64,000 nucleotides of DNA from Notolepis coatsorum (taxonomy: Eukaryota; Chordata; Actinopteri; Aulopiformes; Paralepididae): contig OZ020598.1 of assembly GCA_963971535.1 (NCBI GenBank), forward strand, positions 98,329,674 to 98,393,673, in the 5' to 3' direction. Below the pieces are notes generated by a model, which saw nothing but the letters and a program-made list of their open reading frames with translations, was not told where the DNA came from and did not search any database. This document shows positions 10,953 to 64,000 of the stretch, in pieces. Made by a program: the position numbers and the translations under genes. Positions within the stretch are counted from its first letter, which is position 1. Every line of letters starts with the position of its first letter.

Positions 10953-12623
10953 TTACAAATACTGAAGTCTGTCAGGTGGTCTAGACTGACGTGTAGATCT
11001 TCTCAGTACTGGTGTTGAAGGTGTCTGGTCAGCTGGTGGTGGCAAGTTTGTCAGCCCAGCTGTCGGTGGTGCTGCTGTGGTGCAAACTTCGTCATCAGCT
11101 GTTGACCGTTCTCCAAGTGTCTCTGGTGTTTTCAACAAGCTTCGTCGATTCCTTCTTAGGACTTGACCCTCTTCTGTTCTGACGGTGTAGGATCTAGGAC
11201 CCACTTCCTCCAGAACTGTGGCTCTCCTGTCCCAGTATTTAGAATCCTGTAGTCTCACTGTGTCACGCCGTGACAGTGGCACTAGACCTTTTGAGACTTT
11301 GTCATAGTTTGTTTTCCGTCTGTTTTGCAGACACTTCTGTTTCTGTCTCACAATGTTATTCTTCTTCTGTTTTGCAGTGCAAGGAAGTGTGGTTCGCAGC
11401 CTCCGTCCCATCAGAAGCTCAGCAGGAGACAGTCCATGTTCTAGTGGTGATGCTCTGTAACTCAGTAGAGCTAGATATGGATCAGAACCACTCTCTTTTG
11501 CCTTCAGGAGCAGCCTCTTTACTATGCCCACACCTTTCTCTGCTTTACCATTGGATTGGGCATACAGGGGACTTGAGGTTACATGCTGGAAATCATATTC
11601 TTCTGCAAAGTTTTGGAACTCCCTACAGTTGTAAGCTGGTCCGTTGTCAGAAACGAGAACCTGGCAAATTCCATGTCTCGCAAAGATAGATTTCATATGT
11701 GTAATCACACAAGTAGCTGTCATGCTGGAAAGCAGTGCTATCTCTGGATAGTTAGAAAAATAGTCTATAACCAGTAGATAATTCTTTCCATCCAGGTGGA
11801 ACAAGTCAGTTCCCACTTTTTGCCAAGGCACCTTAGGTAGGTCTGCAGTTACCATAGGCTCTTTCTGCTGCGTCGTATGGTGTTTCAGACAGGTTACACA
11901 GCTCGAGACCATCTTGTCAATGTCTGTGTTGATGCCTGGCCAATATATTGACGTTCTGGCCCTTCTCTTACATTTCTCCATTCCGAGGTGCCCCTCGTGA
12001 AGTCTCTTCAACATCTCTTGTCTCAGTGACTGAGGAATGACAATTGTGTTCTTTCTGAGTAACAGTCCATCTATCACACTCAGCTCTGCTCGGATGTTGT
12101 AATATTGCTGACAGTCTCCTTTAGGCCAGCTCTCTTTCATATTAGTCATAACCCTCTGTAGCAGGGGGTCCTTCTCCGTTTCTGCTGAAATCTGTTTAGA
12201 TTTTCTGTCTGACACAGGAAGGGATTTTGCAATCAAGTTCACATGAAATTCAACATCAGCCTCTGTCGAGCTCACAGGTGCGTCACTCTGTGTCGTTGCC
12301 CTGGACAGAGCATCAGCCATCACAATGTGTTTACCTGGTGTGTATATCAGCTCAAAATCATAACGTTGCAGCTTCATCATCAGTCTCTGTATGCGTGGTG
12401 ACATCTCACTGAGGTTCTTCTTTATGATGGAGATCAACGGCTTGTGGTCTGTCTCTGCCACAAATCTTGGTAGGCCATACACATAACTGTGGAATTTTTC
12501 AAATCCATAGACTAGTCCTAAACACTCCTTTTCAATTTGTGCATAGCGACATTCAGTTACTGTCATCGTTCTTGATGCATAGGCAACTGGCCTCCAATCA
12601 TCTCCATCCGCTTGTAGCAGCAC
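10953..12623 (-). CDS. pol: Pol, second part: RNase H and integrase
   Basis: This 556-residue frame starts within RNase H (WRPVAYASRTMTVTECRYAQ, ETDHKPLISI). The integrase has an HHCC zinc domain (H..H in LHEGHLG, CVTC) around residues 215-250. The DDE core comprises D in GTDLFHLDGKNYL, D in LVSDNGPAYN and E in SNGKAEKGVG. A C-terminal region (VRLQDSKYWDRRATVLEEVG) and a Pro/Thr-rich tail follow. It depends on the upstream pol frame, from which it is separated by a one-base shift near 12,685. A 57-bp stretch of this gene (11199-11255) reappears at 35286-35342. Confidence 0.85.
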   Translation of the reverse strand: MLLQADGDDWRPVAYASRTMTVTECRYAQIEKECLGLVYGFEKFHSYVYGLPRFVAETDHKPLISIIKKNLSEMSPRIQRLMMKLQRYDFELIYTPGKHIVMADALSRATTQSDAPVSSTEADVEFHVNLIAKSLPVSDRKSKQISAETEKDPLLQRVMTNMKESWPKGDCQQYYNIRAELSVIDGLLLRKNTIVIPQSLRQEMLKRLHEGHLGMEKCKRRARTSIYWPGINTDIDKMVSSCVTCLKHHTTQQKEPMVTADLPKVPWQKVGTDLFHLDGKNYLLVIDYFSNYPEIALLSSMTATCVITHMKSIFARHGICQVLVSDNGPAYNCREFQNFAEEYDFQHVTSSPLYAQSNGKAEKGVGIVKRLLLKAKESGSDPYLALLSYRASPLEHGLSPAELLMGRRLRTTLPCTAKQKKNNIVRQKQKCLQNRRKTNYDKVSKGLVPLSRRDTVRLQDSKYWDRRATVLEEVGPRSYTVRTEEGQVLRRNRRSLLKTPETLGERSTADDEVCTTAAPPTAGLTNLPPPADQTPSTPVLRRSTRQSRPPDRLQYL

Positions 12624-12678
12624 CGCTCCAATCCCATTTTTGGATGAGTCAGTGGAAATCTTTATCCTTTTGGACGGG

Positions 12679-13881
12679 TCAAAAAAATGTCAACACCGGC
12701 TCCGTTGTGAGCATGGTTTTCAGTGTTGTCCACTCCTCTTCATGACTGTCAGTCCACTTGAAGTCACACTTGTGGTGTAACAGCTGTCTGAGGTGCACTG
12801 TCTTGGTTGACAAAGTTGGTATGAACTTTCCAACAAAGTTTATCATTCCCATCATTCTCAACACACCTTGCTTATCCTCAGGTCTCGGCATCTCCACTAT
12901 AGCTTTCACCTTGCGGATGTCAGGCTCGACACCTGCACTCGAAAGCTTGTCTCCCAGAAAGGTGATTTCTCTCACACCAAACTGGCATTTTGCTCTGTTG
13001 AGCTTTAGTCCATGCTTTTTGACATTTTGCAGAACCTTGATGAGTCTCTCATTGTGCTGCTCCAGTGTGGATCCCCACACCACCACATCATCCACATACA
13101 CTCGTGCTCCCTCTATACCTTCCAGTATGTGCTCCATAGATCTGTGGAACACTTCAGGAGCAGAGCATATTCCAAAAGGCATCCTTTGGAACGAGTAGCG
13201 GCCAAACGGTGTATTGAATGTACAGTACTTTGTGCTGTCTTCGTGCAGTTTGATCTGCCAAAAGCCCTGTGAAGCATCCAATTTACTGAAATACCTTGCA
13301 CCGGCCATTTCACTCGTTATTTCCTCTCTTGTTGGAATCTGATAATGCTCTCTTTTTATGTTTGCATTTAGGTCTTTTGGATCCATGCACAGACGTATAT
13401 CACCATTTGGCTTCTTGGCACACACCATCGAATTCACCCACTCAGTGGGCTCCTCCACTCTCTTTATCACCCCCAGTGACATCATTCGGTCGAGCTCTTG
13501 CTTCACCTTTTCTCTGAGCGGTGTTGGAACCCGCCTGGGAGCATGTATGACTGGCTGTGCATCCTCTTTCAGTTGGATCTTGTAGGTGTATGGTAAGACA
13601 CCAAACCCTTTGAATACATCAGTATACTGATCCACTGTTGTCTCTATGTCATTCTGTGCATTTGTTTTGATGCTATACATCCTTTTGACTAAACCCAATT
13701 GTTCACATGCCTCATCTCCCAACAGTGAGTCATGTCCATCTGGAACTATTACAAACATGAGGTGATGCTCTTTGCCTTTAACTCTCACCTTCAGTCTGCA
13801 CATTCCTCTTGTGGGGATGGGCTGTCCATTGTAGGCTTTGAGTGGAATGGGATTAGGACGAATGTGGGGCTTCACTTTCAT
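12679..13881 (-). CDS. pol: Pol, first part: protease remainder and reverse transcriptase
   Basis: This 400-residue frame continues from the gag frame after the TAA. The first 80 residues finish the protease (LMFVIVPDGHDSLLGDEAC). RT follows with RVPTPLREKVKQELDRM, AKKPNGDIRLCMDPKDLN, FSKLDASQGFWQI, FQRMPFGICSAPEVF and the catalytic YVDDVV near residue 266. The thumb/connection ends at TEPVLTFF, where a run of seven T (plus TTTTTTT-equivalent A run) shifts the frame by one base and ends the ORF; the RNase H domain resumes in another frame. The rest appears intact, so the shift may be recent or a sequencing error. Confidence 0.85.
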   Translation of the reverse strand: MKVKPHIRPNPIPLKAYNGQPIPTRGMCRLKVRVKGKEHHLMFVIVPDGHDSLLGDEACEQLGLVKRMYSIKTNAQNDIETTVDQYTDVFKGFGVLPYTYKIQLKEDAQPVIHAPRRVPTPLREKVKQELDRMMSLGVIKRVEEPTEWVNSMVCAKKPNGDIRLCMDPKDLNANIKREHYQIPTREEITSEMAGARYFSKLDASQGFWQIKLHEDSTKYCTFNTPFGRYSFQRMPFGICSAPEVFHRSMEHILEGIEGARVYVDDVVVWGSTLEQHNERLIKVLQNVKKHGLKLNRAKCQFGVREITFLGDKLSSAGVEPDIRKVKAIVEMPRPEDKQGVLRMMGMINFVGKFIPTLSTKTVHLRQLLHHKCDFKWTDSHEEEWTTLKTMLTTEPVLTFF

Positions 13882-13896
13882 TTTTCTGATGTGAAG

Positions 13897-14859
13897 TTAA
13901 TTTATCATATTAGCCTTTGCTCCTGTATCCAGTTTAAAAGCAATTACAGCTCCATTTATATGCAAGGGCTCGGTCCACTTGTCCTGCTCCACTCTATTCA
14001 CACTTGTCTGTCTGTCCTCATCCTGTGTCACCATGCCCACAAAGAAGGAATCACACAGGTCATTTTCCTCTACTGTGTGTACACGTTCCCCTCTGCCTTT
14101 TTTTCCCTTGGCAAAGCATTGCTTGGAAAAGTGATTTTGTCCTTGACACTTATGGCACATTTTTCCATATGCTGGGCATTGTCTTGGTGCATGACGAGTA
14201 CCACATCTTTTACATTGAAAAGTGTCTGATCCCTTTTGTTGATTGTACCGCCCCCTTTCTCCCTTGTTGTAGGGCTTTCTCGTTACCATAGCAACCGCTG
14301 CTCCGTCCCTAGCGTCTCCCGCAAATGTTCTGGCATGCTGTACTGCTAATTCACTTGCGTGACATATTCTCACAGCTGATTCAAGGGTTAGCTCTGTCTC
14401 CCGCAGTAACCTCTCCCTCAGTTTCGAATCCAGTACGCCAAACACAATTTGATCACGGATCATAGAGTCGTGCACATCTCCAAAATTACACGTTCTAGCT
14501 TTTAGCTTTAAGTCCGTTAGAAACACATCACAACTTTCAGCAGACTGTTGCATCCTCGAGCGAAACACATACCTTTCAAAGGTTTCGTTCTTCTTCGGGG
14601 AACAGTGTTCATCAAACTTCTTGACAACCTCCGCAAACTTCTCTCTGTCCTCTGCCTCGGCGAACACAAACGTGTTATATACTTCCACGGCTTGTTGTCC
14701 CGCGATGGTCAGAAGCAGTGCAATTCGCCTCGTTTCAGACTTTCCTTCCAGTCCAACAGCCATCAGGTACAGCATGAAACGCTGTTTGAAGGTACGCCAC
14801 TCATAATCCACATTACCAGTCCAATTCACAGCGTCCGGCGGCTTCACACTTTCCATCAT
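13897..14859 (-). CDS. gag: Gag polyprotein of Ty3/Gypsy element, ending in protease DTG
   Basis: This 320-residue frame starts just inside the 5' LTR. Residues 20-175 look like a retrotransposon capsid region (FKQRFMLYLMAVG, ERYVFRSRMQQ). Two zinc knuckles follow: CKRCGTRHAPRQC (216-228, slightly short spacing) and CHKCQGQNHFSKQC (235-248). The last residues read KLDTGAKANMIN, so the DTG active-site triplet of the aspartic protease (311-313) is here. A TAA stop then separates it in the same frame from the pol frame, which continues 15 nt further on. Readthrough, or a mutation, would be needed to make Gag-Pol. Confidence 0.85.
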   Translation of the reverse strand: MMESVKPPDAVNWTGNVDYEWRTFKQRFMLYLMAVGLEGKSETRRIALLLTIAGQQAVEVYNTFVFAEAEDREKFAEVVKKFDEHCSPKKNETFERYVFRSRMQQSAESCDVFLTDLKLKARTCNFGDVHDSMIRDQIVFGVLDSKLRERLLRETELTLESAVRICHASELAVQHARTFAGDARDGAAVAMVTRKPYNKGERGRYNQQKGSDTFQCKRCGTRHAPRQCPAYGKMCHKCQGQNHFSKQCFAKGKKGRGERVHTVEENDLCDSFFVGMVTQDEDRQTSVNRVEQDKWTEPLHINGAVIAFKLDTGAKANMIN

Positions 14860-14888
14860 GACGACTCGTGATTACACTCCTGGTACCA

Positions 14889-20013: not shown

Positions 20014-20257
20014 GGTAAGGACTATATGAATGAATGAATGAATGAATGAATGAATGAATGAATGAATGAATGAATGAAAACTTTATTAACAGATTGCAGA
20101 ATGGGTACAGTACAGTACTGTAGGAGTGGGGGGGGGTTGGGTAGGAGGGGTGGGTGGGGGACACAGTACAACTGTACAAACAACACTGTACATTGGATTA
20201 TTGACAAGACCATACTTGGTAATTTACTGTACATTGGAGGGGGTTGTGTTCGGACAT

Positions 20258-20545
20258 TTACAGGGGCCAGTTTCGAGTTGCAGTCTCCCTTAGGTGTTTT
20301 TTGAGAGTGTTTTTGAAAGTGGGTAGTGATTCACATTCCTTTACAGCTTTGGGTAGGGCGTTCCACATTGATGTGGCATAATTGCGAAACGTGTTTAGTC
20401 CCTTGTTTGAGCCGAATCTGGGTTTAACATGATTTGTGGAGCTCCCTCTGGTGTTGTGATCGTGGTATTCACTGACCTTTGGGAAGTATTTTGTCATGTA
20501 CATGGGTACCTTGGTCGTGTAGTGTATCTTGTAGACCAGGCCCAT
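20258..20545 (-). pseudogene. LINE X ORF2 C-terminus after the frameshift
   Basis: This frame (MGLVYKIHYTTKVPMYMTKY, RGSSTNHVKPRFGSNKGLNT, MWNALPKAVKECESLPTFKN) is the end of ORF2 in family X. The piece encoding FRNYATSMWNALP also occurs, degraded, in intron 3 of the gene at 59007-61819 (near 60110-60150), which links those intron copies to this family. Confidence 0.7.
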
Positions 20546-20630
20546 TGCAAGTTGCTGTACTCTGTCGTCTACTCTAAGCCATCCTAGGTTGTCAAAGTGG
20601 GCAGGGGTGAGGTGGGTTCTAGGAGTAAGG

Positions 20631-22943
20631 TCAAGCAGTAGTCTGACCAGTTTGTTTTGAGATGTTTGTAATTTTGTTTTTAGAGCCTTTGAGGTGCTTT
20701 GGTACCATGAGGTGCAAGCATAGTCGTAGTACCCTTGAATGAGTCTTCAGGGTATTCTTGTTTACCAGTGAGGAGATCCGGTACAAGAATCGTGTTCGTT
20801 GGTTGACTTTTTTTATTACATTGGATGCCATTTTGTCACAGGAAAGATTTGCCTCTAGGATGGAACCCAGGTAGGTAATATCTTCTTTCCTTGTGACAAT
20901 ATTGTCACCCACTGTAACTGAGAAGCCGTCGGTCTTGCTGAGTTTGTTATTTGAACCGAAGAGAATGGACTCTGTTTTGCCCATGTGTAATGATAGTTTG
21001 TTATCAGCGAGCCATATGCAGATTTTGCCTAGTTCTGAGCTGAGGGTTTTTTCAACCTGTAACTTGTTCTTGTCAGAGACCAGCAGGGCTGAGTCGTCCG
21101 CAAACAGGAACAAGTTGCAGTCACAAGCTGACGACATGTCATTTGCATAAATTAGGAACAGTAGCGGACCTAGTATGCTTCCTTGTGGAACACCACAGTT
21201 TACTGTGAGGGGGGGGGATAGGGTACCGTTTACCTCCACCATCTGCTCTCTCCCCTCCAGGTAGGATTGCATCCAGCTCACTGATAGACTATCAAAACCA
21301 ATTGCTTTTAGCTTGTCAATCAGAATGGTGTGATTGACAGTGTCGAAGGCCTTTTGTAGGTCCAGCATGACCATGCCGCAGTATTTGCCCGCGTCCACCT
21401 CTTGTTTGATGTGGTCGTTTAAATAGAGAAGGCATGTGTCAGTGGAGTGGGATGTTCTGAAGCCAGATTGGAATTCGTAGATTAGATTTTTTTCCGCAAG
21501 GTATTTTTCGACCTGTTCGTATACAATTTTTTCCATGACTTTCGAGATGGAGGTAAGGATAGAAACAGGGCGGTAGTTGCCTGGGTCTAATTTACTGCCT
21601 TTTTTGTGCAGAGGGGTCACTCTCGCAATTTTGAAGTCCTTGGGGACGTGTCCCTGTTTTATGGAGAGGTTTATTATGTGTGTGATGACTGGGGTGATGG
21701 CGGCTGCTGAGTCTCTGAGGAATTTGGAGGGGATGTTGTCATGGCCAGTGGCCTTGTTGGGTTGGAGGGCGCTCAGTTTTTTGAGTACCTCATCTGTTAC
21801 CATTTCCAGTTTGAAGTCGTCTTTGTGGACCCCTAGGTTCTTGTAGTATGCTACTATGTGTTCTACCCCATAATGCCCTGAGTGGGAGGGTAGTTTGTTT
21901 ACCAGTGTTGTGGCTATGTTTGTGAAGAAACTATTTAAGTAATTGGCTACATCCAGCTTTTCTGTGATGAGCGTGTTGTCCGTCTTTATGTTTATGTTTG
22001 AGAATCTGGTTTTAAGTTTTTTACTGCAGCCTAGTTGGTTATTGAGTAATTTCCAAAGTTCACGCGGTTTGTTTTTGTTTTCCTCGGTTTTGTCATTGAT
22101 GAATTTTTTCTTTGCTGTTTTGATCATGGAGTTTACATCATTTCTTAGTCTGTTTCTTTCCAGTTTGAGTTCAGTCACGTGGGCTTGGAGTTCACTGCTC
22201 GTGCTTATGTTAAGCTTTGACTGACTTTTACGAAACTCAGAGCATTTTTTGTCTCTGGTTTTCATAGCGGTCAGTATTTCAGCGTGCATCCACGGCTCAG
22301 CGCGATTTTTTACCCTGGTGGTTCTTAGGGGGGCCATGTTGTTTAGTATCGTTGAAAATTTGGTTTTGAAGCCAAGCCATGTTTCTTCAACCAGTGTACC
22401 ATTGAGCTCGTCTGACCAGTCCAGACTTTCCAGTTCAAGGTTAAAGGCCTCGCTAGAGTAGGTTTTTAGGTCTCTAGATGTGACTGTTTTGTGACAGCCA
22501 GCCTTTTGTTTTAGCTTTTTGCGTGTACAGAATATCATATAATGATCACTTAACCCGCATGCTATAACCCCTTTATTGGCGATCTTGGACTTGTCAGAGG
22601 TCAGGATGAGGTCAATGGTAGTCTGAGTTGACTCACACACACGTGTGGGTTGTGTGATTAGTTGGCTGAGGCCGTGCAGATCACAAAACCTATTGTAGGA
22701 TTTGAAGACGGGTGCATCTTTTTGTTGCATATCCGTGTTAATCATTTCTGTATCCTCAACTCCAGCTAAGCACGCATCCAACACGTCATAAAAGCCATTT
22801 TGGTCTGGCGGTCTGTAAATTGTGCCGACTAGAACAGATTTAGCCCTTTCAAATAGAATTTCTACAAAAACAGTTTCAATAGCCTCATGATTTAGGTCTG
22901 TACGGTTAATAAATTTGGTGTCTTGACCAAATCTAAATTGTTG
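20631..22943 (-). pseudogene. LINE X ORF2: endonuclease end and reverse transcriptase
   Basis: The frame from about 22943 down holds the C-terminal half of an endonuclease (TIDLILTSDKSK, CGLSDHYMIFC) and then a full RT: ARVTPLHKKGSKLDPGNYRP, YEFQSGFRTSHST, MLDLQKAFDTVNH, NCGVPQGSILGPLLF and the catalytic FADDSALLV. The thumb region follows (GKTESILFGS, EDITYLGSIL). A frameshift near 20,742 (after KNTLKT) puts the last 160 residues in another frame, and the final part reads on at 20258-20545. The N-terminus of the endonuclease is missing. It cannot make full-length protein but is not very old, since only one shift was seen in 2.3 kb. Confidence 0.8.
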
Positions 22944-23321
22944 GATCTAAATTTGATCCAACAATGATTTCACATCGATCGCAACGATCAGCGTATGTAG
23001 TATTCAAAACGTATGCCGTTTGCTGACGATCAGAGCATCACAAAACGACCCCCCCCCCCCCTTTGATGCCTTCATGATGAAACATAATACCTATTATATA
23101 CCTTTGATTTGGAAATAATATCGTGTCCAGGCGAGGAACACGAACGACTTTCGCAAAATGCACATATCGCTCCATAACTCAGCTTCCAGGAATTATCCCG
23201 GATCACTCTGAAACTATACAATATTCACCACAGGATAACACGCAAATGTGAAAATGCCTATCTTTTAGCGTGGCTCATTGACTACAGGGATGAGGGTAAT
23301 CGCTGGCGCTGAATGAGTTAA
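22944..23321 (+). mobile_element. piggyBac-like element, copy d, right fragment
   Basis: The end, reversed, is TTAACTCATTCAGCGCCAG, and TTAA lies at 23318-23321. The segment with a C run (AAAACGACCCCC...) then TTCATGATGAAACATAATAC is the reverse complement of the matching region of copies b and c. Confidence 0.5.
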
Positions 23322-32469: not shown

Positions 32470-32612
32470 CACACGCTACAGTTGTCCAAGGCATCTGCTA
32501 TATAATAATCTTCGGATTTACTTTAAGTGTTATTAGTAGGTTACAGCAGTAAGCATTAGTTTGCTCAGTAAATTATGGCCAATTCGTTTTATATTGTTTA
32601 ATAGTTAAATAA

Positions 32613-33165
32613 ATGGGTCCTACTAATCACCCCAAAGTACCAGAAAATACCAGAAACTACCCCAAAGTATACCCCAAAATACCAGAAACTACCCCAAAAT
32701 ACCAGAAAATACCAGAAACTACCCCAAAGTATACCCCAAAATACCAGAAACTACCCCAAAGTATACCCCAAAATACCAGAAACTACCCCAAAATACCAGA
32801 AAATACCAGAAACTACCCCAAAGTATACCCCAAAATACCAGAAACTACCCCAAAGTATACCCCAAAATACCAGAAACTACCCCAAAATACCAGAAACTAC
32901 CCCAAAATACCCCAAAATACCAGAAAATACCCCAAAATACCAGAAACTACCCCAAAATACCAGAAAATACCCCAAAATACCAGAAACTACCCCCAAAATA
33001 CCAGAAAATACCCCAAAGTATACCCCAAAATACCAGAAACTACCCCAAAATACCAGAAAATACCAGAAACTACCCCAAAATACCAGAAAATACCAGAAAC
33101 TACCCCAAAGTATACCCCAAAATACCAGAAACTACCCCAAAATACCAGAAAATACCCCAAAGTAT
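32613..33165 (+). repeat. Minisatellite, CCCCAAAATACCAGAAA family, block 1
   Basis: Imperfect units alternate between CCCCAAAATACCAGAAACTA, ...AGAAAATA and CCCCAAAGTATA. It stays open for translation (TPKYQKIPETTPKY-like repeats) because the units vary by multiples that keep the frame; I do not take this as a gene. The block continues at 34133 after a LINE insertion. Confidence 0.9.
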
Positions 33166-34140
33166 CAATCAATCAATCAAATCCTTTATTTAACCAGATA
33201 AGCATCATTGAGATTAAAATCTCTTTTTCAAGAGCGATCTGGCCAAGCAAGGCAGCAGAAAGTTTCAACATAAAAAAGAACATCACAATAAAATACAGAT
33301 AAAACATTTACATCAAGCTCCAATTTCAGGCAAGTTATCAAACAGGCAAATGATCAAACACAGTTGCACTGACCAAGGGAACTGAGTTCGTAGGATTTTA
33401 AAATGGCTTTGAATTCTCCGAGGGTGACCAGTCCTGGTAATTTTAGGTCCTCCTGTATCTTGTTCCAAGATGAAGGAGCAGCATATTTAAAAGCCCTTTT
33501 TCCCAATTCAGTTCTCATATGGGGAACTTCCAGTGTTAGAACAGCTTGAGAACGAAGGGCATACTTATATTGCTTTGTGCACAGAAGCACACTTAGGTAC
33601 GAGGGAACCAGTTTAAGCAGAGCTTTGTGCACCAGAGAGAGCCATCGAGAAAATCGTCGTATTTGTAGAGATGGATAACTTGCAATGGTATATAGGGTGC
33701 AATGGTGCACTCGATTTCCACATCCCGTGACAAAGCGTAAGGCAGAATGGTACACAGTATCAAGCTTTCTAAGGTACTGATCAGGTGCATACATATAGAG
33801 TAAGTCACCATAATCGAGTAGTGGTAAGAAGGTGGTCGAGATCAGGTGACTTCTCACTTTAAGTGAAAAACAGGACCTGTTTCTGAAAAAGAAGCCGAGT
33901 TTAAGCTTCAGCTTTGACACAAGTTTGTCTATGTGAGATTTAAACGTAAGGTTCTCGTCCACTGTAATGCCTAGATATTTGTAGGAAGCAACCCTTTCGA
34001 TGTCAGTCCCTCCAGCAGTAACCAGTGTGGGAAGATCAGCTGGGAGTCTCTTCCCATTTGAGAAGAGCATAAACTTTGATTTGCCAGCATTTAACACTAG
34101 CTTAAGCTGGGTAAGATGTGACTGAACAATGTCAAAGTAT
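33158..34140 (-). mobile_element. LINE remnant inserted in the minisatellite, 8-bp duplication
   Basis: CAAAGTAT flanks the insertion (33158-33165, 34133-34140). In element sense the 3' tail is GAGATTTTAATCTCAATGAT, then GGTTAAATAAAGG and ATTG units, a tail type common in fish LINEs. The same tail type is seen at about 16880-16920 and at 35735-36230. Confidence 0.85.
33354..34132 (-). pseudogene. LINE ORF2 C-terminal fragment
   Basis: About 255 residues are open: LVLNAGKSKFMLFSNGKRLP, VASYKYLGITVDENLTFKSH, LGFFFRNRSCFSLKVRSHL, TTFLPLLDYGDLLYMYA, YHSALRFVTGCGNRVHHC and TELGKRAFKYAAPSSWNKIQ. These are the thumb and C-terminal parts of a non-LTR RT. The catalytic core is absent (5' truncation). 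Upstream the frame runs on by chance into the minisatellite. No stop interrupts the LINE part, so the insertion is rather young. Confidence 0.75.
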
Positions 34141-34505
34141 ACCAGAAAATACCCCAAAATACCAGAAACTACCCCCAAAATACCAGAAAATACCCCAAAG
34201 TATACCCCAAAATACCAGAAACTACCCCAAAATACCAGAAAATACCAGAAACTACCCCAAAATACCAGAAAATACCAGAAACGACCCCAAAATACCCCAA
34301 AGTATACCCCAAAAATACCAGAAAATACCCCAAAGTATACCCCAAAATACCAGAAACTACCCCAAAATACCAGAAAATACCCCAAAGTATACCCCAAAAT
34401 ACCAGAAACTACCCCAAAATACCAGAAACTACCCCAAAATACCAGAAAATACCAGAAACTACCAGAAACTACCCCAAAGTATACCCCAAAATACCAGAAA
34501 ATTTC
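34133..34505 (+). repeat. Minisatellite, block 1 continued
   Basis: Same units as 32613-33165, interrupted only by the LINE. It ends at ACCAGAAAATTTCTAGGAAG, where the MULE-like frame begins. Confidence 0.9.
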
Positions 34506-35635
34506 TAGGAAGGGAAAACCACCTTGTGTCATCCTTTACTTTGATGAACAATTAGAAGATGTTAGAAGATTTTGTTGTGGGCAGGATGCTACATCTGTTT
34601 TAGGAGTGGATCGCACATTTAATTTGGGGGCTTGCTTCTTAACAGTGACTGTGTTCAAAAACCCAAAACTTTTTAAGAAAGAGACTGGAGAGCCACCATT
34701 ATTCATTGGGCCACTGTATTTGCACTGGGACGGCAGCTTTGAGACTTACCATGATTTCTTTGCCCATTTGAAATCAAAGTTGTCGGTGGCATATTTAGCA
34801 ACAGAAATAAATATCAGTGAGGACATAGTTATTGGATCCGATCAGGAATGGGCAATTTTAAAGGCCATAAAGTCTTTGTTTCCTGAAGCGAGTCATATTT
34901 TGTGTTCAAAACATATTCGGGATAATGTGAAACATTATCTAACACATAAAGTGGGAATGGACGCAAAAAAGAGAGCAGTACTTGAGAATAAGCTGTTCCA
35001 TAATGCTAATTCTCTTACCTACTGTAAAAACGAGTATGACTTTTGTGAAAAGGTACTTGAACTTGAAACATATATAGAATCAAATTGCCCAGAGTTCACT
35101 ACATATTTCTCTAAGTTAATACCTACTGTACATTGAAAAAGAAAATAATTGAGACAAAGAACAGAAATAAATGGATTCCTGATAATTGGACAAATAATAA
35201 TTGTGAAGCAATGAATCATGTAATTAAGCTGACTACTAATTGGAAACCACAAAAGTTACCAGATCTGATATTAAAACTCCAACAAACCCACTTCCTCCAG
35301 AACTGTGGCTCTCCTGTCCCAGTATTTAGAATCCTGTAGTCTATTCTCAAATTTCTCAACTTCAAAATATAGATGTGCGCAGATGCCTTCATGGCCAAGG
35401 TAATTATACTTTAAAGCCAGAATTTAAAAGATATGAGGTCCCCAATGTCATATGGGACACTATAACTAAAGATGAGCAGAATGAGCTATATTTAAAGTTC
35501 TTGAAAGTTAAGATGGTACCTAAGGCTAAAACAATAGAATCAAATGATGGTCAGTTGAGCATTCCAGTGGTACCCCAGCTAGCCAAAAAAGAACGGCAAA
35601 AAATGAGCGAACAACTTCAAAAAGAAGAAAAGTGA
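34506..35635 (+). pseudogene. MULE-like transposase remnant
   Basis: The frame gives ILYFDEQLEDVRRFCCGQDA, then SVLGVDRTFNLG (first catalytic-type D), PLYLHWDGSFETYHDFF, VIGSDQEWAILKAIKSLFPE (second D) and HILCSKHIRDNVKHYL (C.H..), which is the MULE transposase domain. A stop follows at 35,134. In the next frame WIPDNWTNNNCEAMNHVIKL (third acidic residue region) continues, and after a foreign 57-bp patch the C-terminal part lies at 35375-35635 (NVIWDTITKDEQNELYLKFL). The start is fused in frame to the minisatellite. It is a dead copy, but the DDE region is well preserved. Confidence 0.65.
35286..35342 (-). repeat. 57-bp copy of the Ty3 integrase region
   Basis: This 57-bp stretch (starting ACCCACTTCCTCCAGAACTG) is identical to 11199-11255 of the Ty3/Gypsy pol gene, in the same strand sense. 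The sequence on each side is MULE-derived, with no LTR or tail. Confidence 0.9.
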
Positions 35636-36230: not shown

Positions 36231-36779
36231 ATGACACAGTTAGAATGTCCTGTTATGTTGTCATGTATAGCCTATAGTTGTCTCTTTTCTTCCGTCCTTA
36301 CTGGAATTTGTTCAAAAATGTTATACTGTTCTGTTATTATTGTTGTTGATGTTGTTTTGTTATTGTTGAACATTTAAAATAAAATTGATAAAAAAAAATG
36401 TATACTGTTTGTTCAGTGTTCAATACAGATGTTATTACATTTGGAGATTATAATATATTAAAATAAACATTTGTTTTGAAAATATGTGGTACTTTGGGAA
36501 TGGGAAATGGACTCCACATATATAGCACTTTCCTACCTGCACAAATAGCTTTATAATTGCCTCTCCTTCACCAATTCACACATGCACTCACAGAGCAATG
36601 GCAGCCAGATGCCATGCAAGGTGCTAGCCTGCTTATTGGAGTAATTTGGGGTTCAGTGTCTTGAAGGACACTTCGGCATGTGAACAGAAGGAGCTGGGAT
36701 TCAAACCACTGACCAAACCATTGACCATATGATCATTAGTTGACCTGCTCTACCTCTGAGCCAGTATTTTGTGGTACAT
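36231..36779. other. Unassigned sequence
   Basis: No gene seen. A stretch at about 36520-36750 (TGGCAGCCAGATGCCATGCA, GAACAGAAGGAGCTGGGATT) resembles an old repeat, but I could not place it. Confidence 0.3.
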
Positions 36780-37216
36780 TGAGGTATACTTTGGGGAACT
36801 TTGAGGTTCTTTGGGGTATTTCGTGATACTTTGGTATTTTAGGGTATACTTTGTGGTATACTTTGGGGTATTTTTTCTGGTACTTTGGGGTATACTTTGG
36901 GGTATTTTAGGGTATTTTCTGGTATTTTGGGGTATTTTCTGGTATTTTGGGGTATACTTTGGGGTATTTTGGTGTAGTTTCTGGTATTTTGGGGTATATT
37001 TGGGGGTATTTTCTGGTATTTTGGGGTATACTTTGGGGTATTTTCTGGTATTTTGGGGTAGTTTCTGGTATTTTGGGGTAGTTTCTGGTATTTTGGGGTA
37101 TATTTTGGGGTATTTTCTGGTATTTTGGGGTATTTTCTGGTATTTTGGGGTAGTTTCTGGTATTTTGGGGTATACTTTTGGGTATTTTGGGGTAGTTTCT
37201 GGTATTTTCTGGTATG
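36780..37216 (-). repeat. Minisatellite, block 2, inverted relative to block 1
   Basis: Units such as GGTATTTTGGGGTAGTTTCT and GGTATACTTTGGGG are the reverse complement of the units at 32613-34505. Together the two blocks bracket the MULE-like remnant. Confidence 0.9.
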
Positions 37217-37286
37217 TGTGCTGTATAAGATAAGAGATTCCTTGTTGAATGTTGAAAATAATGTACTTCTATTGTCTACACTACAG

Positions 37287-37406
37287 TGAGGAGGAGGAAG
37301 AGGCTGGGGGAGATGAGCTGCCTTCGACCAGTGCCGGCACGAGACATGCAAGGAGGGGGGTAGGGCGTGCGAAAGCCAGGTCCCGGTCCCCAAATGACCC
37401 AGACAG
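37287..37406 (+). CDS. Exon of an unassigned gene, acidic then Arg/Ser-rich (possibly transposase N-terminus)
   Basis: The acceptor CTACACTACAG precedes a frame reading EEEEEAGGDELPSTSAG and ARRGVGRAKARSRSPNDPD, and a good donor CAG|GTGAGA ends it at 37406. The split codon AG is completed by A at 56530, where the next exon begins, so both halves share a phase across an 19.1-kb intron that contains the Penelope-like element. Acidic/basic disordered N-termini like this are common in piggyBac-type and other transposases, but I cannot assign it. The upstream exon would lie before the minisatellite and was not found. Confidence 0.45.
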
Positions 37407-37542
37407 GTGAGACAGATGTTTTTAGCTTTTTTATTATTACGCAGACTTTGTATGCAATATATACAGAATGGAATGTTAAGTGTATATACAGTGTGTGTGT
37501 GTGTGTGTTGTAGTGTGATAGATGAGCAGTGTTTTATATGTA

Positions 37543-37630
37543 ATATGTAATTCCGAAACATGTTTGTTTCAGGCTGCCATTAAATACTTGAACCTGAGAG
37601 TGCTGGTCTAGCTTCACTGCTTCTTTTTTA
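37543..37630 (+). repeat. Penelope-like terminal repeat, left, truncated
   Basis: From ATATGTAATTCCGAAACATG to CACTGCTTCTTTTTTATA this matches 56402-56488 with a few differences. It starts inside the hammerhead-like hairpin, so the CTGAAGA part is missing on this side. Confidence 0.8.
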
Positions 37631-58664: not shown

Positions 58665-59279
58665 CAGACTCTCTTACTCCACAACCATCTCCATACTGCT
58701 TGTAGCACAGGAGAAGAGTGGCTAGTGGGAATGCCCTCCCTAAGGGCCCGCGTCCACTTGGCGCATATTTCTAGCTGAAACATGCTGGGAGTGCGCCCGG
58801 TAGAATGGGGCGGGGCGCATGCATGCGGTGAGAAAAAAAACGCAGCGAGAGCGTGATGACGCACCAAGCTACCTGATGACGAGACGAGAGACAAAACCTA
58901 CATGACAGCCATCTTGGAATAATAACTTTTATCGTATTTTACTGTCGCGGTTATTATTATTATTATTATTATTAGTGTATTCGTGGGTGCTTCTTTGCGA
59001 ATCGCGATGAGTCTGACCACCAACCAGCAGAGGCAAATTGCTCTCATACTTCTGCTGGATACATTTAACAATGTTCCTGCTGCTAACGATGTTCCTGCTG
59101 CTGTCACCGTGCCAGACGGTCGTAGAGCAAGGAGGAGAATCTGGATACACGACACCATTCGCCGGAGACAATAATACGGGGAGTGCCATCGTCTCATCCA
59201 AGAGCTCCAGTTCGATGGAGCCCGGTTCCAGGCGTATTTCAGGCTAACAAAATGCCAATTTGAGCTGCTCCTCCAGAAG

Positions 59280-59440
59280 GTAAATGTTTCTTCCCCTTCG
59301 GATGTATATATTTTTTTATGATCTCTTGTATGTCAGTAACTACTACCTGTTATCAGTCTATATCCCTACAGTAACTACCTGTTATCAGTCTATATCCCAT
59401 TCTGCAATCTGTTAATAACGTTTTCATTCATTCATTCAAG
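59280..59440 (+). mobile_element. Intron 1 with LINE X tail forming the acceptor
   Basis: The donor is AAG|GTAAATG. The intron ends CCCATTCTGCAATCTGTTAA, then CATTCATTCATTCAAG|GTTGG: the LINE X 3' tail (plus sense) ends exactly at the acceptor. Confidence 0.8.
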
Positions 59441-59520
59441 GTTGGCGATACCATCGCTAGATCCCAGACGAGGTTGAGGGAGACGATCGGCCCTGCAGAG
59501 CGTCTGTACATCTGTCTGCG

Positions 59521-59697
59521 GTGAGTTTGATTGATTGATTGAAAACGTTACAGCTCAATACACACAATTGTTAAGGGGATGCAGACCAGAGAAATACTTT
59601 TTGAGCTGCAGTGTCCACACCCTATTCAACTACGGGGTTAATAATAATAATAAGTTGTATACTGAAAATATTTTATAACATTTGTCTCACATTCTAG
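59521..59697 (-). mobile_element. Intron 2 with inverted LINE X tail forming the donor
   Basis: The intron starts GTGAGTTTGATTGATTGATT, then ACAGCTCAATACACACAATT and GATGCAGACCAGAGAAATAC: a minus-sense LINE X end beginning at the donor. The acceptor side (CATTCTAG) is unrelated. Confidence 0.75.
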
Positions 59698-59900
59698 GTT
59701 CCTTGCCACTGGTGACTCCTACAGGACCATAGCATTCAGCTATAGAGTGGGGAACTGTACAGTGGGACGTATCGTCAGGGACGTGTGTACCGCCATCTGG
59801 AGCTGTCTTCTACAGGACTACATGCCTGTGCCCAAGAAAGAAGACTGGCAGAAAATAGCTCAAGATTACAGTTCCCTCTGGGCTTTCCCAAACTGCCTAG

Positions 59901-60173
59901 GTGAATGAATGAATGAGAACTTTATTTAACAGATTGCAGAATGGGTACAATACAGTACGGCTCAATACACACAATTGTTAAGGGGATGCAGACCAGAGAA
60001 CAACGTTTGTCTTGTTTACATCAGGGTCCCCATATTTGTAATTCATAGTGACATTTATGACATAGGGACATACATGGGTAGGGATTCACATCTTTTTACG
60101 GCTGTGGGTAGGGCCGGCGTTCCACATTGTTGTGGCATAATTGTGAATTTTTTATTGTGTGTTGTTTTATAGG
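59901..60173 (-). mobile_element. Intron 3, nearly all inverted LINE X
   Basis: It starts GTGAATGAATGAATGAGAAC right after the exon and runs through CAGATTGCAGAATGGGTACA to GTTCCACATTGTTGTGGCAT (matching 20360-20390 of LINE X ORF2). About 250 of 273 bp are LINE. Confidence 0.85.
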
Positions 60174-60539
60174 TGCAGTTGATGGGAAGCACGTCATAGT
60201 CCAAGCCCCACCTTGCAGCGGTTCCCTGTATTTCAACTATAAGGGAACCTTCTCCATCGTTCTCCTCGCCATAGTGGATGCCCACTACCGCTTCCGCATG
60301 GTCGATGTGGGAGCATATGGGAGAAGCAGCGATGGGGGAACGCTGTCTGCCTCCGTATTCGGCAGGGCCCTACGCAAAGGGACATTGGACCTGCCAGAGG
60401 ACACCCCTCTTCCAGGCGCAGAGGACCTGGGCCCCGTCCCCCATGTCTTTGTGGCAGATGAGGCCTTCCCTCTGCGAAGGCACATGATGAGGCCCTACGC
60501 AGGGCGAACAGAGGGAGAGAAGAGGGTCTTTAACTACAG

Positions 60540-60853
60540 GTACTATATACCTGTATGTCATGTATGTCCCTATGCCATAAATGTCACAATGAATTAAAAA
60601 TGGGGGACCCTGATGTAAACAAGACAAACGTCGTTCTCTGGTCTGCAGCCCCTTAACCCTTTCACTGCCACACTACAGAAGGTTAACCCTTTACTATCAC
60701 ACAACCGAGGGTTAACCTTCTGTAGTGTGGCAGTGAAAGGGTTAACCTGCTGTCGTGTGGCAGTGAAAAGGGTTAACAATTGTGTGTATTGAGCCGTACT
60801 GTATTGTACCCATTCTGCAATCTGTTAAATAAAGTTGTCATTAATTCATTCAG
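60540..60853 (+). mobile_element. Intron 4, nearly all LINE X, with a nested TTAA MITE
   Basis: It contains AATGGGGGACCCTGATGTAA, CCCATTCTGCAATCTGTTAA and ends GTCATTAATTCATTCAG|GCTT at the acceptor. The TTAA palindrome at 60653-60776 is inserted in it. Confidence 0.85.
60653..60776. mobile_element. Palindromic piggyBac-like MITE in intron 4
   Basis: TTAACCCTTTCACTGCCACA and its reverse complement form near-perfect arms around a short centre (60653-60745). A partial further arm, also closed by TTAA, extends to 60776. TTAA at the ends fits piggyBac-type insertion. Confidence 0.7.
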
Positions 60854-60997
60854 GCTTTCCCACGCCAGAAGAATGGTGGAGTGCTCTTTTGGCATCATGG
60901 CGGCTCAGTGGAGACTGTATAGGAGGGTGCTGGGTGTGTCTCCAGAGGTTGCGGAGAAAGTTGTGAAAGCAACATGTATGCTCCACAACTTCATGAG

Positions 60998-61167
60998 GTA
61001 GGCTATATATAAATATCTGTATGTCATAAATGTCCTGATGAATTGAAAATGGGGGACCCTGATGTAAACAAGATGAAAGTCTTTCATCCCCTTAACAGTT
61101 GTTTGTATTGAGCTGTACTGTATTGTACCCATTCTGCAATTAATAATGTTTTCAATCAATCAATCAG
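60998..61167 (+). mobile_element. Intron 5, nearly all LINE X
   Basis: It runs TATGTCATAAATGTCCTGAT, AATGGGGGACCCTGATGTAA, TGTACCCATTCTGCAATTAA and ends TTCAATCAATCAATCAG|GTGG, so the tail of the LINE is the acceptor. Confidence 0.85.
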
Positions 61168-61239
61168 GTGGGACGATGGATCTGTGCCAGCGCTGCCTCC
61201 CGCGGTGCCAGCAGAGCCACTCCTTGGTGCCCAGGCCCT

Positions 61240-61713
61240 CAGAAGTCAAGTACCTCAACCTCCTCCCGGTAGGCCTTCTCGTCGTTGTCCGAGATCAGCC
61301 CCACCACCACCGTGTCATCTGCGAACTTCACTATGGAGTTGGAGCTGAACTTGGCCACACAGTCGTGTGTGTAGAGTGAGTACAGCAGGGGGCTCAGAAC
61401 ACAGCCCTGGGGGGACCCGATGCTCAGGGTGATGGTGTTGGAGGTCTGACCCCCCACCCTGACCGCCTGGGGTCTTTCGCTCAGAAAGTCCAGTACCCAG
61501 GCGCTCAGGGCGGAGCTCAGACCTAGCTCGATCAGCTTGTCCACCAGTCTGGTGGGGACTATGGTGTTGAACGCTGAGCTGTAGTCAATGAACAACAGTC
61601 TCACATAGCCCCCCTTCTGACGGTCAAGGTGCGAGAGGGTGCTGTGCAGTACCTGGGAGACCGCGTCGTCGGTGGACCTGTTTGTCCTGTATGCAAATTG
61701 CAAATTGCAGAAG
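61240..61713 (-). mobile_element. Rex1-like RT fragment in exon 6, 6-bp flanking repeat
   Basis: CAGAAG flanks it (61240-61245, 61708-61713). The minus frame 61703-61246 reads [60 protein letters not shown] and [17 protein letters not shown]. Both 5' and 3' ends of the LINE are missing. It splits the last transposase exon between QALR and MGSNN. Confidence 0.85.
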
Positions 61714-62933: not shown

Positions 62934-63462
62934 ATCTGGGTGACAGACGACAGAATATTTCAGTTTTGGAGATAAATTACTAGAATAATTAAATTAAGTT
63001 TCCACTTTTTCCAGTTTTCCACAAAATGCCAAAGCTATATATATATATATAGTTTGCCATTTATGTAAACAAACCTGATTACATCAGTGGTATCTCACAC
63101 ACATTCTGATAATGTTTAACAATAAAAACCTTGTGACTGGAAATGTTATCTATGTCCATCTGTGTTAAATCTCTGTACAGCTTTTGACTAGTTAATATAT
63201 ATATATATATATATATATATACAGCCAAGGTTGAGGAGATATGACATTCTGGTCAGACGCTGGTGTGTCTCTGATGATGAACTGAGCACTTTTCTGTGGG
63301 CATGGAAACAGAAATAAACTATGTTCTATATTTTTATACAAATTGACTCGATCTGAATTCCTACAGCTTCACTGTTTGGCTCATTGGAATATTCCACAGC
63401 AACCTTCATCTCTTACTCCCTGCTTGCACTGAAGTGATCAGGCCCTAAAGTCAATTATTACC
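62934..63462. other. Second intron of the MADF-BESS gene
   Basis: This contains TA microsatellites (about 63037-63050 and 63193-63220) and no other feature. Confidence 0.6.
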
Positions 63463-64000
63463 TGTGACATATGTGATGAAGACATGGAGGCGAGCAAGGA
63501 GTCCACAGTCTGCTGGCTCTCCATCTCCCTGAAATTACTGCTGGTCTCCCTGTCCTGCATGTGTGGCTCTAAAAAACTCAGGATGCTCAAATACTTCCAT
63601 CTTTTTTTTCCTCCAGCTTCTGCTCCACTCTTCTTCTCTTTCTCAGCCCTTCTATCCTTCCTATATTTGTCCCTCAAGTATTTCCACTTTGATTGGCAAC
63701 GATCACCTATAATCAGATAGCAGACTAAATAATGACATTATGTAAAAGGTATCAGATTGACATTGCTAGCTAATGATATGCTAACAATATAACGACGTCA
63801 GATATAGTTTTGTACAGTGGATGATATAAAAAAAAATAACTCACCAGCAACATTCATGGTCCTGCCAATCTGGTCCCACAAACGGGCTTTCCTGTCTTTA
63901 TTATGATAATGTTTATCGGACATATCGTATAGCTCTGGGTAGGTGGAGACAGCCAAAATCAACATCTCCTCCATATTGATGTCGGGTGAGGTGAAGTGAG

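Follow-up and report, generated by a model that had tools for sequence, protein, structure and literature searches.

The window analysed here is a stretch of 64,000 nucleotides from Notolepis coatsorum. Six exons on the plus strand between positions 59007 and 61245 join in frame to one DDE transposase, and the joined exons matched the DDE_Tnp_4 family in a profile search (PF13359, 96.4 bits), which identifies a PIF/Harbinger transposase. Exon 1, placed by protein alignment to relatives, lies at 59007–59279 and is followed by exons at 59441–59520, 59698–59900, 60173–60539 (exon 4, containing most of the DDE_Tnp_4 match), 60854–60997 and 61168–61245 (exon 6, as far as an inserted reverse-transcriptase fragment). 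The five introns are located at 59280–59440, 59521–59697, 59901–60172, 60540–60853 and 60998–61167, with phases 0, 2, 1, 2 and 2, and the exon phases are compatible, as an earlier note on this DNA had claimed. Named relatives found by protein search were mostly from teleosts.

Two defects were found in the window copy. An in-frame TAA is present in exon 1 at 59172–59174, and exon 6 is broken at 61246–61707 by a minus-strand reverse-transcriptase fragment (PF00078) with a CAGAAG repeat at 61240 and 61708. No LINE X tail (see below) was seen in this fragment and, by our own reading, it appears to offer no exact GT–AG register; relative L070 is without it and contiguous in exon 6. Because of the stop codon and the interrupted last exon, the window copy is probably dead. 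A second, Myb/SANT-like protein is encoded at 63438–63737 on the minus strand (MADF, PF10545, 27.8 bits against a cut-off of 22), and its nearness suggests that it is part of the same Harbinger element. No convincing terminal inverted repeats were found in the 25 longest of 41 pairs between 57500 and 64000, where the far end of the element may exceed the window. Elsewhere in the window, long repetitive ORFs of type KYPKIPETTPKYTPKYQK were observed at 32605–34535 and 36750–37579, and three minus-strand ORFs at 10953–14871 resemble, by eye only, LTR retrotransposon gag-pol.

The window also contains copies of a retroelement designated LINE X. The longest of these (20063–22946, minus strand) comprises a reverse-transcriptase ORF and a 3′ end with an (ATTC)n tail. 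The reverse transcriptase was recognised at 20634–22946 on the minus strand (PF00078, 121.5 bits), while the endonuclease profile PF14529 reached 20.5 bits, below its cut-off of 27.4. LINE X copies have a constant 3′ tail, varying 5′ truncation and target duplications, the last as examined for copies in the window Harbinger gene and in the hAT-like and THAP genes treated below, and with its reverse transcriptase this marks LINE X as a non-LTR retrotransposon (LINE). We guess its clade to be L2/CR1-like.

All five Harbinger introns contain short, 5′-truncated copies of LINE X, tailed by (ATTC)n or (AATC)n, in plus orientation in introns 1, 4 and 5 and in minus orientation in introns 2 and 3. 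In an alignment against the three other LINE X regions of the window they cover 27%, 34%, 94%, 90% and 91% of introns 1 to 5, and no match was found in the exons. The recognised part of intron 1 is its last ~45 bp, with the LINE X tail at 59396–59438, and for the first 116 bp, unrecognised as LINE, filler or another origin is needed. In intron 2 the minus-sense copy lies at about 59528–59601, just after the donor GTGAGT, and intron 3 is minus-sense LINE X nearly throughout. Intron 4 is plus-sense LINE X from its first base, bases 1–47 being identical when LINE X copies in two other genes are taken as yardstick, and it holds a palindromic insert of ~115 bp (about 60658–60772) with several inverted repeats. 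Intron 5 is a plus-sense copy of the AATC-tail subfamily, of which 12–15 bases were unrecognised as LINE. Scored with a splice-site matrix, the donor of intron 4 (GTACTA) and the acceptor of intron 5 were weak. The plus-sense tails of introns 1, 4 and 5 end exactly at the acceptors, where the earlier note had placed them. Its minus-sense tail as donor was confirmed for intron 3, where the tail starts at the donor, but not for intron 2, where the tail lies just inside GTGAGT; similarly, its description of introns 3, 4 and 5 as nearly all LINE suits introns 3 and 5, but passes over the palindromic insert of intron 4.

Introns 1, 3, 4 and 5 are flanked by direct repeats of 4–6 bp, each containing AGG: AAGGT for intron 1 (59277–59281 and 59438–59442), TAGGTG for intron 3, CAGG for intron 4 and AGGT for intron 5. 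Repeats with AGG are partly expected at any splice junction, and a summed repeat length of at least 19 has a P of about 0.002 for ordinary splice junctions, as calculated from splice-site frequencies. Since all repeats contain AGG, the AG of the acceptor comes from the target, as does the donor GT in whole or in part. The original suggestion, in which the LINE itself would bring an acceptor when in one orientation and a donor when in the other, is thereby altered: the LINE gives the adjoining bases, but AG and the donor's G or GT are part of the target duplication. When random insertions into this coding sequence with a 3–7 bp target duplication were simulated, 2.9% were exactly GT–AG spliceable, which puts four exact fits out of four at about 7×10−7 and bears out, for four introns and not five, that chance placement is unlikely.

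The assembly (3.42 Gb, 4,787 contigs) was searched for relatives with empty sites by protein search with exons 3–6 joined. One decayed relative, at C1:159123800–159127100 (L069/L070, with L069 at C1:159123800–159126000), is 86–97% identical to the window gene in exon DNA, depending on the exon. The DNA of L069 runs through site 1 (CCAGAAGGTTGGC), site 3 (CTGCCTAGGTGCAG) and site 4 (TTCAGGCTTTCCC) without a break. Its intron 2 starts with GTGAGTTGCAGTG and has no LINE, whereas in the window copy GTGAG is followed by a LINE; the 3′ end of this intron in L069 is repeated several times in tandem, and the length up to the last repeat is 509 bp. Intron 5 is common to L070 and the window, with the same LINE tail followed by AGGTGGGACG; the repeat reads AGGTG in L070 and the 5′ ends of the two introns differ. 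L069 itself is decayed, with frame breaks, and its exon 5 contains an insert of nearly 890 bp (~1225–2109). Four more distant relatives (L039, L040, L041 and L058, ~62–74% identity) were contiguous over sites 3, 4 and 5 at the protein level, and L039 was also contiguous over site 1, which is therefore empty in one close and one distant relative within this genome. A separate empty-site test on 37 sequences missed these four at sites 4 and 5, and protein contiguity was used for them. In that test L034 and L013 were half-matches (7–8 mismatches of 28) with deleted exon edges and were not counted. L071, a truncated copy, was rejected as an empty site, and L001–L008, of another Harbinger family, gave no match.

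The earlier note had proposed that LINE insertions became introns at all five sites, to be checked by looking for copies without the introns in the same genome and to be abandoned if introns without LINE sequence occurred at the same positions. Copies without the introns were found for sites 1, 3 and 4 (L069) and for sites 3, 4 and 5 (L039, L040, L041 and L058), whereas among the relatives examined a LINE-free intron at the same position was found for intron 2 only (L069). The proposal is thus upheld for introns 1, 3, 4 and 5 and has to be given up for intron 2, an older intron into which a LINE appears to have fallen. The intron states of L069/L070 and of L039–L041 and L058 suggest that intron 2 is the oldest, that intron 5 was gained next and that introns 1, 3 and 4 followed.

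Relatives from elsewhere point to the same age of intron 2. From the protein search lists, 92 relatives held by metagenome sources only were taken, and their ORFs were assumed, from how metagenome proteins are predicted, to be unspliced DNA reads; ORFs failing to cover a site were scored as uncovered. Contiguity was observed over site 3 in 77 of the 92, over site 4 in 82 of the 92 and over site 1 in all six ORFs covering it. Six ORFs begin at site 3 and one is gapped there, and three end at site 4; by our own reading, the starts and ends at these two sites are probably frameshifts, start codons or protein ends. Site 5 was spanned cleanly by only 16 ORFs, with 39 ending nearby and 14 gapped. 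Because of this low number, a later C-terminal motif was counted: of 45 ORFs carrying the motif that precedes site 5, 31 also had the later one. At site 2, intron-like sequence in phase 2 was found in ten relatives (P0052, P0066, P0070, P0071, P0084, P0123, P0161, P0167, P0208 and P0227), which start with residues fitting a pyrimidine run and AG|G directly before [FY]LATG or LSTG, and six other ORFs crossed the site without a break. P0230, one of seven ORFs starting at site 2, was left out for its plausible start codon. P0070, P0071 and P0084 had been labelled as lacking intron 2 in the protein tree and proved intron-like at site 2 on re-reading.

As ten relatives are intron-like at site 2 while sites 1, 3, 4 and 5 are contiguous, intron 2 appears to be old and the others not. 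The donor GTGAGT of intron 2 is not LINE, as the LINE-free start in L069 demonstrates, and intron 2 is best described as an older family intron that received a LINE. In the protein tree the window gene groups with P0107 and P0006 (100/100), and P0107 runs unbroken through sites 3 and 4 and continues past site 5 with 3 gap columns. Viral and GTDB contigs, from which the records nearest the window genome may be absent, yielded neither relatives nor exact matches to LINE X, and a protein search with exons 1 and 2 gave no match.

The window gene has many near-identical copies. Exon 4 gave 111 candidates, of which 40 were scored (96–100% identical, window included), and 30 loci, the window copy and 29 others, were compared at 97–99% identity. 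An intron at the same GT..AG positions, with both exon edges readable, was present in 11 (intron 1), 14 (intron 2), 28 (intron 3), 14 (intron 4) and 12 (intron 5) of the 30. The remaining copies were cut, rearranged or extended past the compared stretch, and the introns were present in the 29 other copies wherever both exon edges were readable. The LINE tail of intron 1 was present in all 13 copies aligned for it, and intron 4 of L012 no longer has its GT. Sharing of the same introns by near-identical copies implies that the introns predate the multiplication of these copies. Many copies of this Harbinger family were also seen clustered on G000:C27 at ~5.4–10.5 Mb, those compared having a longer intron 4 and an altered 5′ part.

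Selection on the spliced frame was assessed on BLAST alignments ignoring frameshifts, mostly against the window copy. The pN/pS ratio was 0.35 when 14 copies were compared with the window copy and 0.31 over all pairs of 13 (window included). For 15 copies, which showed none of 113 possible stop changes, it was 0.30 outside CpG, 0.53 at CpG sites and 1.04 for CpG transitions alone; L018 and L019 gave identical figures and may be duplicates. Exons were more divergent than introns among the copies. Variation was found in 31.7% of CpG columns and 5.0% of the others, and CpG decay may account for much of the excess divergence of the exons. The spliced frame thus appears to be under purifying selection, with a pN/pS of about 0.3, from which we infer that introns 1, 3, 4 and 5 are spliced.

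Very probably, introns 1, 3, 4 and 5 are 5′-truncated LINE X copies that were inserted in coding exons, were exactly spliceable and were kept by a survival filter. The support for this reading lies in the empty sites, the flanking repeats, the shared introns and the selection; splicing, the filter and the order of gain are deductions from the DNA. LINE X would insert in coding exons of the Harbinger-type transposase at AGG or AGGT, read in gene sense. Through the target duplication, the downstream exon would then be preceded directly by AG and the upstream exon followed directly by G or GT, and the spliceosome would remove the insert with one copy of the duplication exactly, giving back the original frame. 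In plus orientation the T-rich 3′ end of the LINE and its (ATTC/AATC)n tail would form the run before the AG, and in minus orientation the tail would yield GT+GAAT as donor. Insertion would not be aimed at AGGT; with selection still acting on the gene, exactly splicing insertions would survive, and the transposon would afterwards multiply with its introns. Intron 5 would have been gained first and introns 1, 3 and 4 afterwards, with the older intron 2 receiving a LINE inside. The reverse-transcriptase insert that breaks exon 6 is the outcome when the spliceability filter is absent.

If LINE X instead aimed at AGGT, the coincidence would be one of target choice in which splicing is irrelevant. 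With a strict 27-base pattern (tail plus AG) GT came next in 43 of 92 cases, and three of the five AGGT sites in the spliced coding sequence hold an intron, as targeting predicts. However, 41 of these 43 places lie in three multi-copy transposon genes, to which they were assigned by position and flank, so the excess reflects copying of the genes. With a looser tail pattern AGGT followed in 87 of 1,203 cases (7.2% against 6.25% by chance), and it was found at 3 of 39 distinct tail sites among the first 100 matches listed, all on C1. Moreover, the target of intron 3 in LINE sense is ACCTA, so that only the gene sense is common to the targets. LINE X appears to have no preference for AGGT, and targeting is extremely improbable as an explanation. 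Given this lack of preference, the pattern is best explained by survival of spliceable insertions, the best reading being that insertions were filtered for spliceability while the gene was still important.

That the introns are old and LINE X later fell in beside their splice sites seems true of intron 2, given its LINE-free form in L069 and the ten intron-like relatives. As an account of the other introns it is highly improbable, since the exon is uninterrupted at sites 1, 3 and 4 in L069 and at sites 3, 4 and 5 in L039–L041 and L058, and the metagenome ORFs that start or end at sites 3 and 4 appear to reflect frameshifts, start codons or protein ends. Relatives can lose introns when spliced RNA is copied into cDNA and re-inserted, a known process, and the empty sites might have arisen in this way. 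Such loss would have had to spare two introns in L069, which is without introns 1, 3 and 4 yet retains 2 and 5 and is therefore unlikely to be a re-inserted spliced cDNA; most metagenome ORFs covering sites 3 and 4 are without those introns, and the flanking repeats fit insertion. We regard loss as exceedingly improbable. The stop codon and the broken last exon of the window copy, together with some weak splice sites, could mean that the insertions occurred in dead copies, are not spliced and fit exactly by luck. Against this stand the minute chance of four exact fits, the many near-identical copies that carry the introns and the selection on the spliced frame, and this reading, too, is very improbable. 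Spread of a single intron to further sites by reverse splicing was rejected, as intron 3 has the opposite orientation and the truncation points differ. Origin from LINE X insertions filtered for spliceability is accordingly the reading retained.

These introns resemble Introners, transposable element copies that create introns by insertion in exons, in some families of which the target duplication provides all or part of both splice sites, according to the parts of Gozashti et al. 2022 (PMC9860276) used here. Common to both is de novo creation of introns in exons by element copies, here evidenced by the empty sites; the agent here, however, is an ordinary 5′-truncated LINE, in a fish. The survey in the same paper kept only introns that were similar at both ends, discarded pairs in similar proteins and asked for at least four such introns in unrelated genes, whereas here four introns lie in one gene and one in a hAT-like gene, and the case is therefore classed as introner-like and not as an Introner in the sense of that survey. 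The 5′ ends of LINE X introns differ because the copies are truncated, and under both rules that survey would be expected to miss truncated LINEs in one gene; in the parts used, it reports no pattern of intron gain in vertebrates.

The window gene fits the model in which insertion into AGGT duplicates AGGT and gives exact splice sites (Yenerall and Zhou 2012, PMC3443670). The table of that paper lists transposon insertion for Oryza, Drosophila, Oikopleura and Zea and no vertebrate, and its main text never uses the words retrotransposon, SINE or non-LTR. A retroelement in an exon likewise turned intron in rice catalase A, where a SINE is described, and in human Alu introns (Sela et al. 2007, PMC2394776, as far as used here); the latter are alternative and in the 3′-UTR, unlike the four coding introns in one gene with exact restoration of the frame. 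Several introns were likewise gained in one gene in serpins of ray-finned fish, but in the sections used of Ragg et al. 2009 (PMC2746811) those showed no similarity to known repeats, whereas the source element is identified here. No report of LINE-made coding introns in a vertebrate was found in the literature searched, which covered few subscription papers and no preprints (PMC12124190, PMC9179366, PMC11782384 and PMC3488318, in the parts used, included). The AGGT insertion mechanism is known, and what differs here is an ordinary LINE as the agent, in vertebrate coding sequence. LINE-made introns are a rarely documented route of vertebrate intron gain.

The origin of new vertebrate introns is a long-open question, and in this single genome the source element, the target duplications, the empty sites and the order of gain can all be read. 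The case also suggests that mobile genes may serve as nurseries of introns. A general test is enabled, a search for LINE copies with both ends at splice sites, which searches for introns similar at both ends should miss. It is possible, although we would lean slightly against it, that new spliceosomal introns are still being supplied by an ordinary, recently active LINE and accumulate in transposon genes and, unseen so far, in host genes. Accumulation on that reading would include the Harbinger and hAT-like genes and, probably, the THAP and Kolobok-like genes. Copies that hit AGG(T) within a coding exon, whatever their orientation, would then be open to exact splicing, and transposons that carry introns would spread them by transposing.

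Plus-sense LINE X tails followed by AGGT under the strict pattern, 43 places genome-wide, were distributed over a gene we take to be Kolobok-like (27), a hAT-like gene (12) and a THAP gene (2), with 2 unassigned. A common Kolobok-like flank was found in 6 of 8 loci examined (L072, L073, L075, L077, L078 and L079). The exon begins exactly after the LINE X tail, AG|GTGACTCTTGC, and the upstream part was composite in the two translated loci. L074 (C1:261906344) contains two exons which, joined over a 582-bp stretch (AACAG|GTGAGA ... TTCAG|GTGCAAAGG), give the whole THAP profile; the second half of this stretch is LINE, ending in the LINE X tail. The DUF4371 transposase of L076 (34.8 bits), presumably hAT-like, is split by a 260-bp putative intron, CTAG|GTACGT...TTCAG|GTGTTAATG, of which bases 5–260 match the LINE of L074. 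Its relative L080 (84% across the junction, two stop codons) is uninterrupted there with 3 extra bases, and the hAT-like gene appears to hold a LINE X intron of independent origin. Another hAT-like copy, at G000:C27:49403164–49403885 (88% and 84% in two overlapping pieces), is seemingly uninterrupted at the LINE-intron site. The two strict-pattern places outside the three transposon genes are located at G000:C29:105500752 and G000:C46:48689165.
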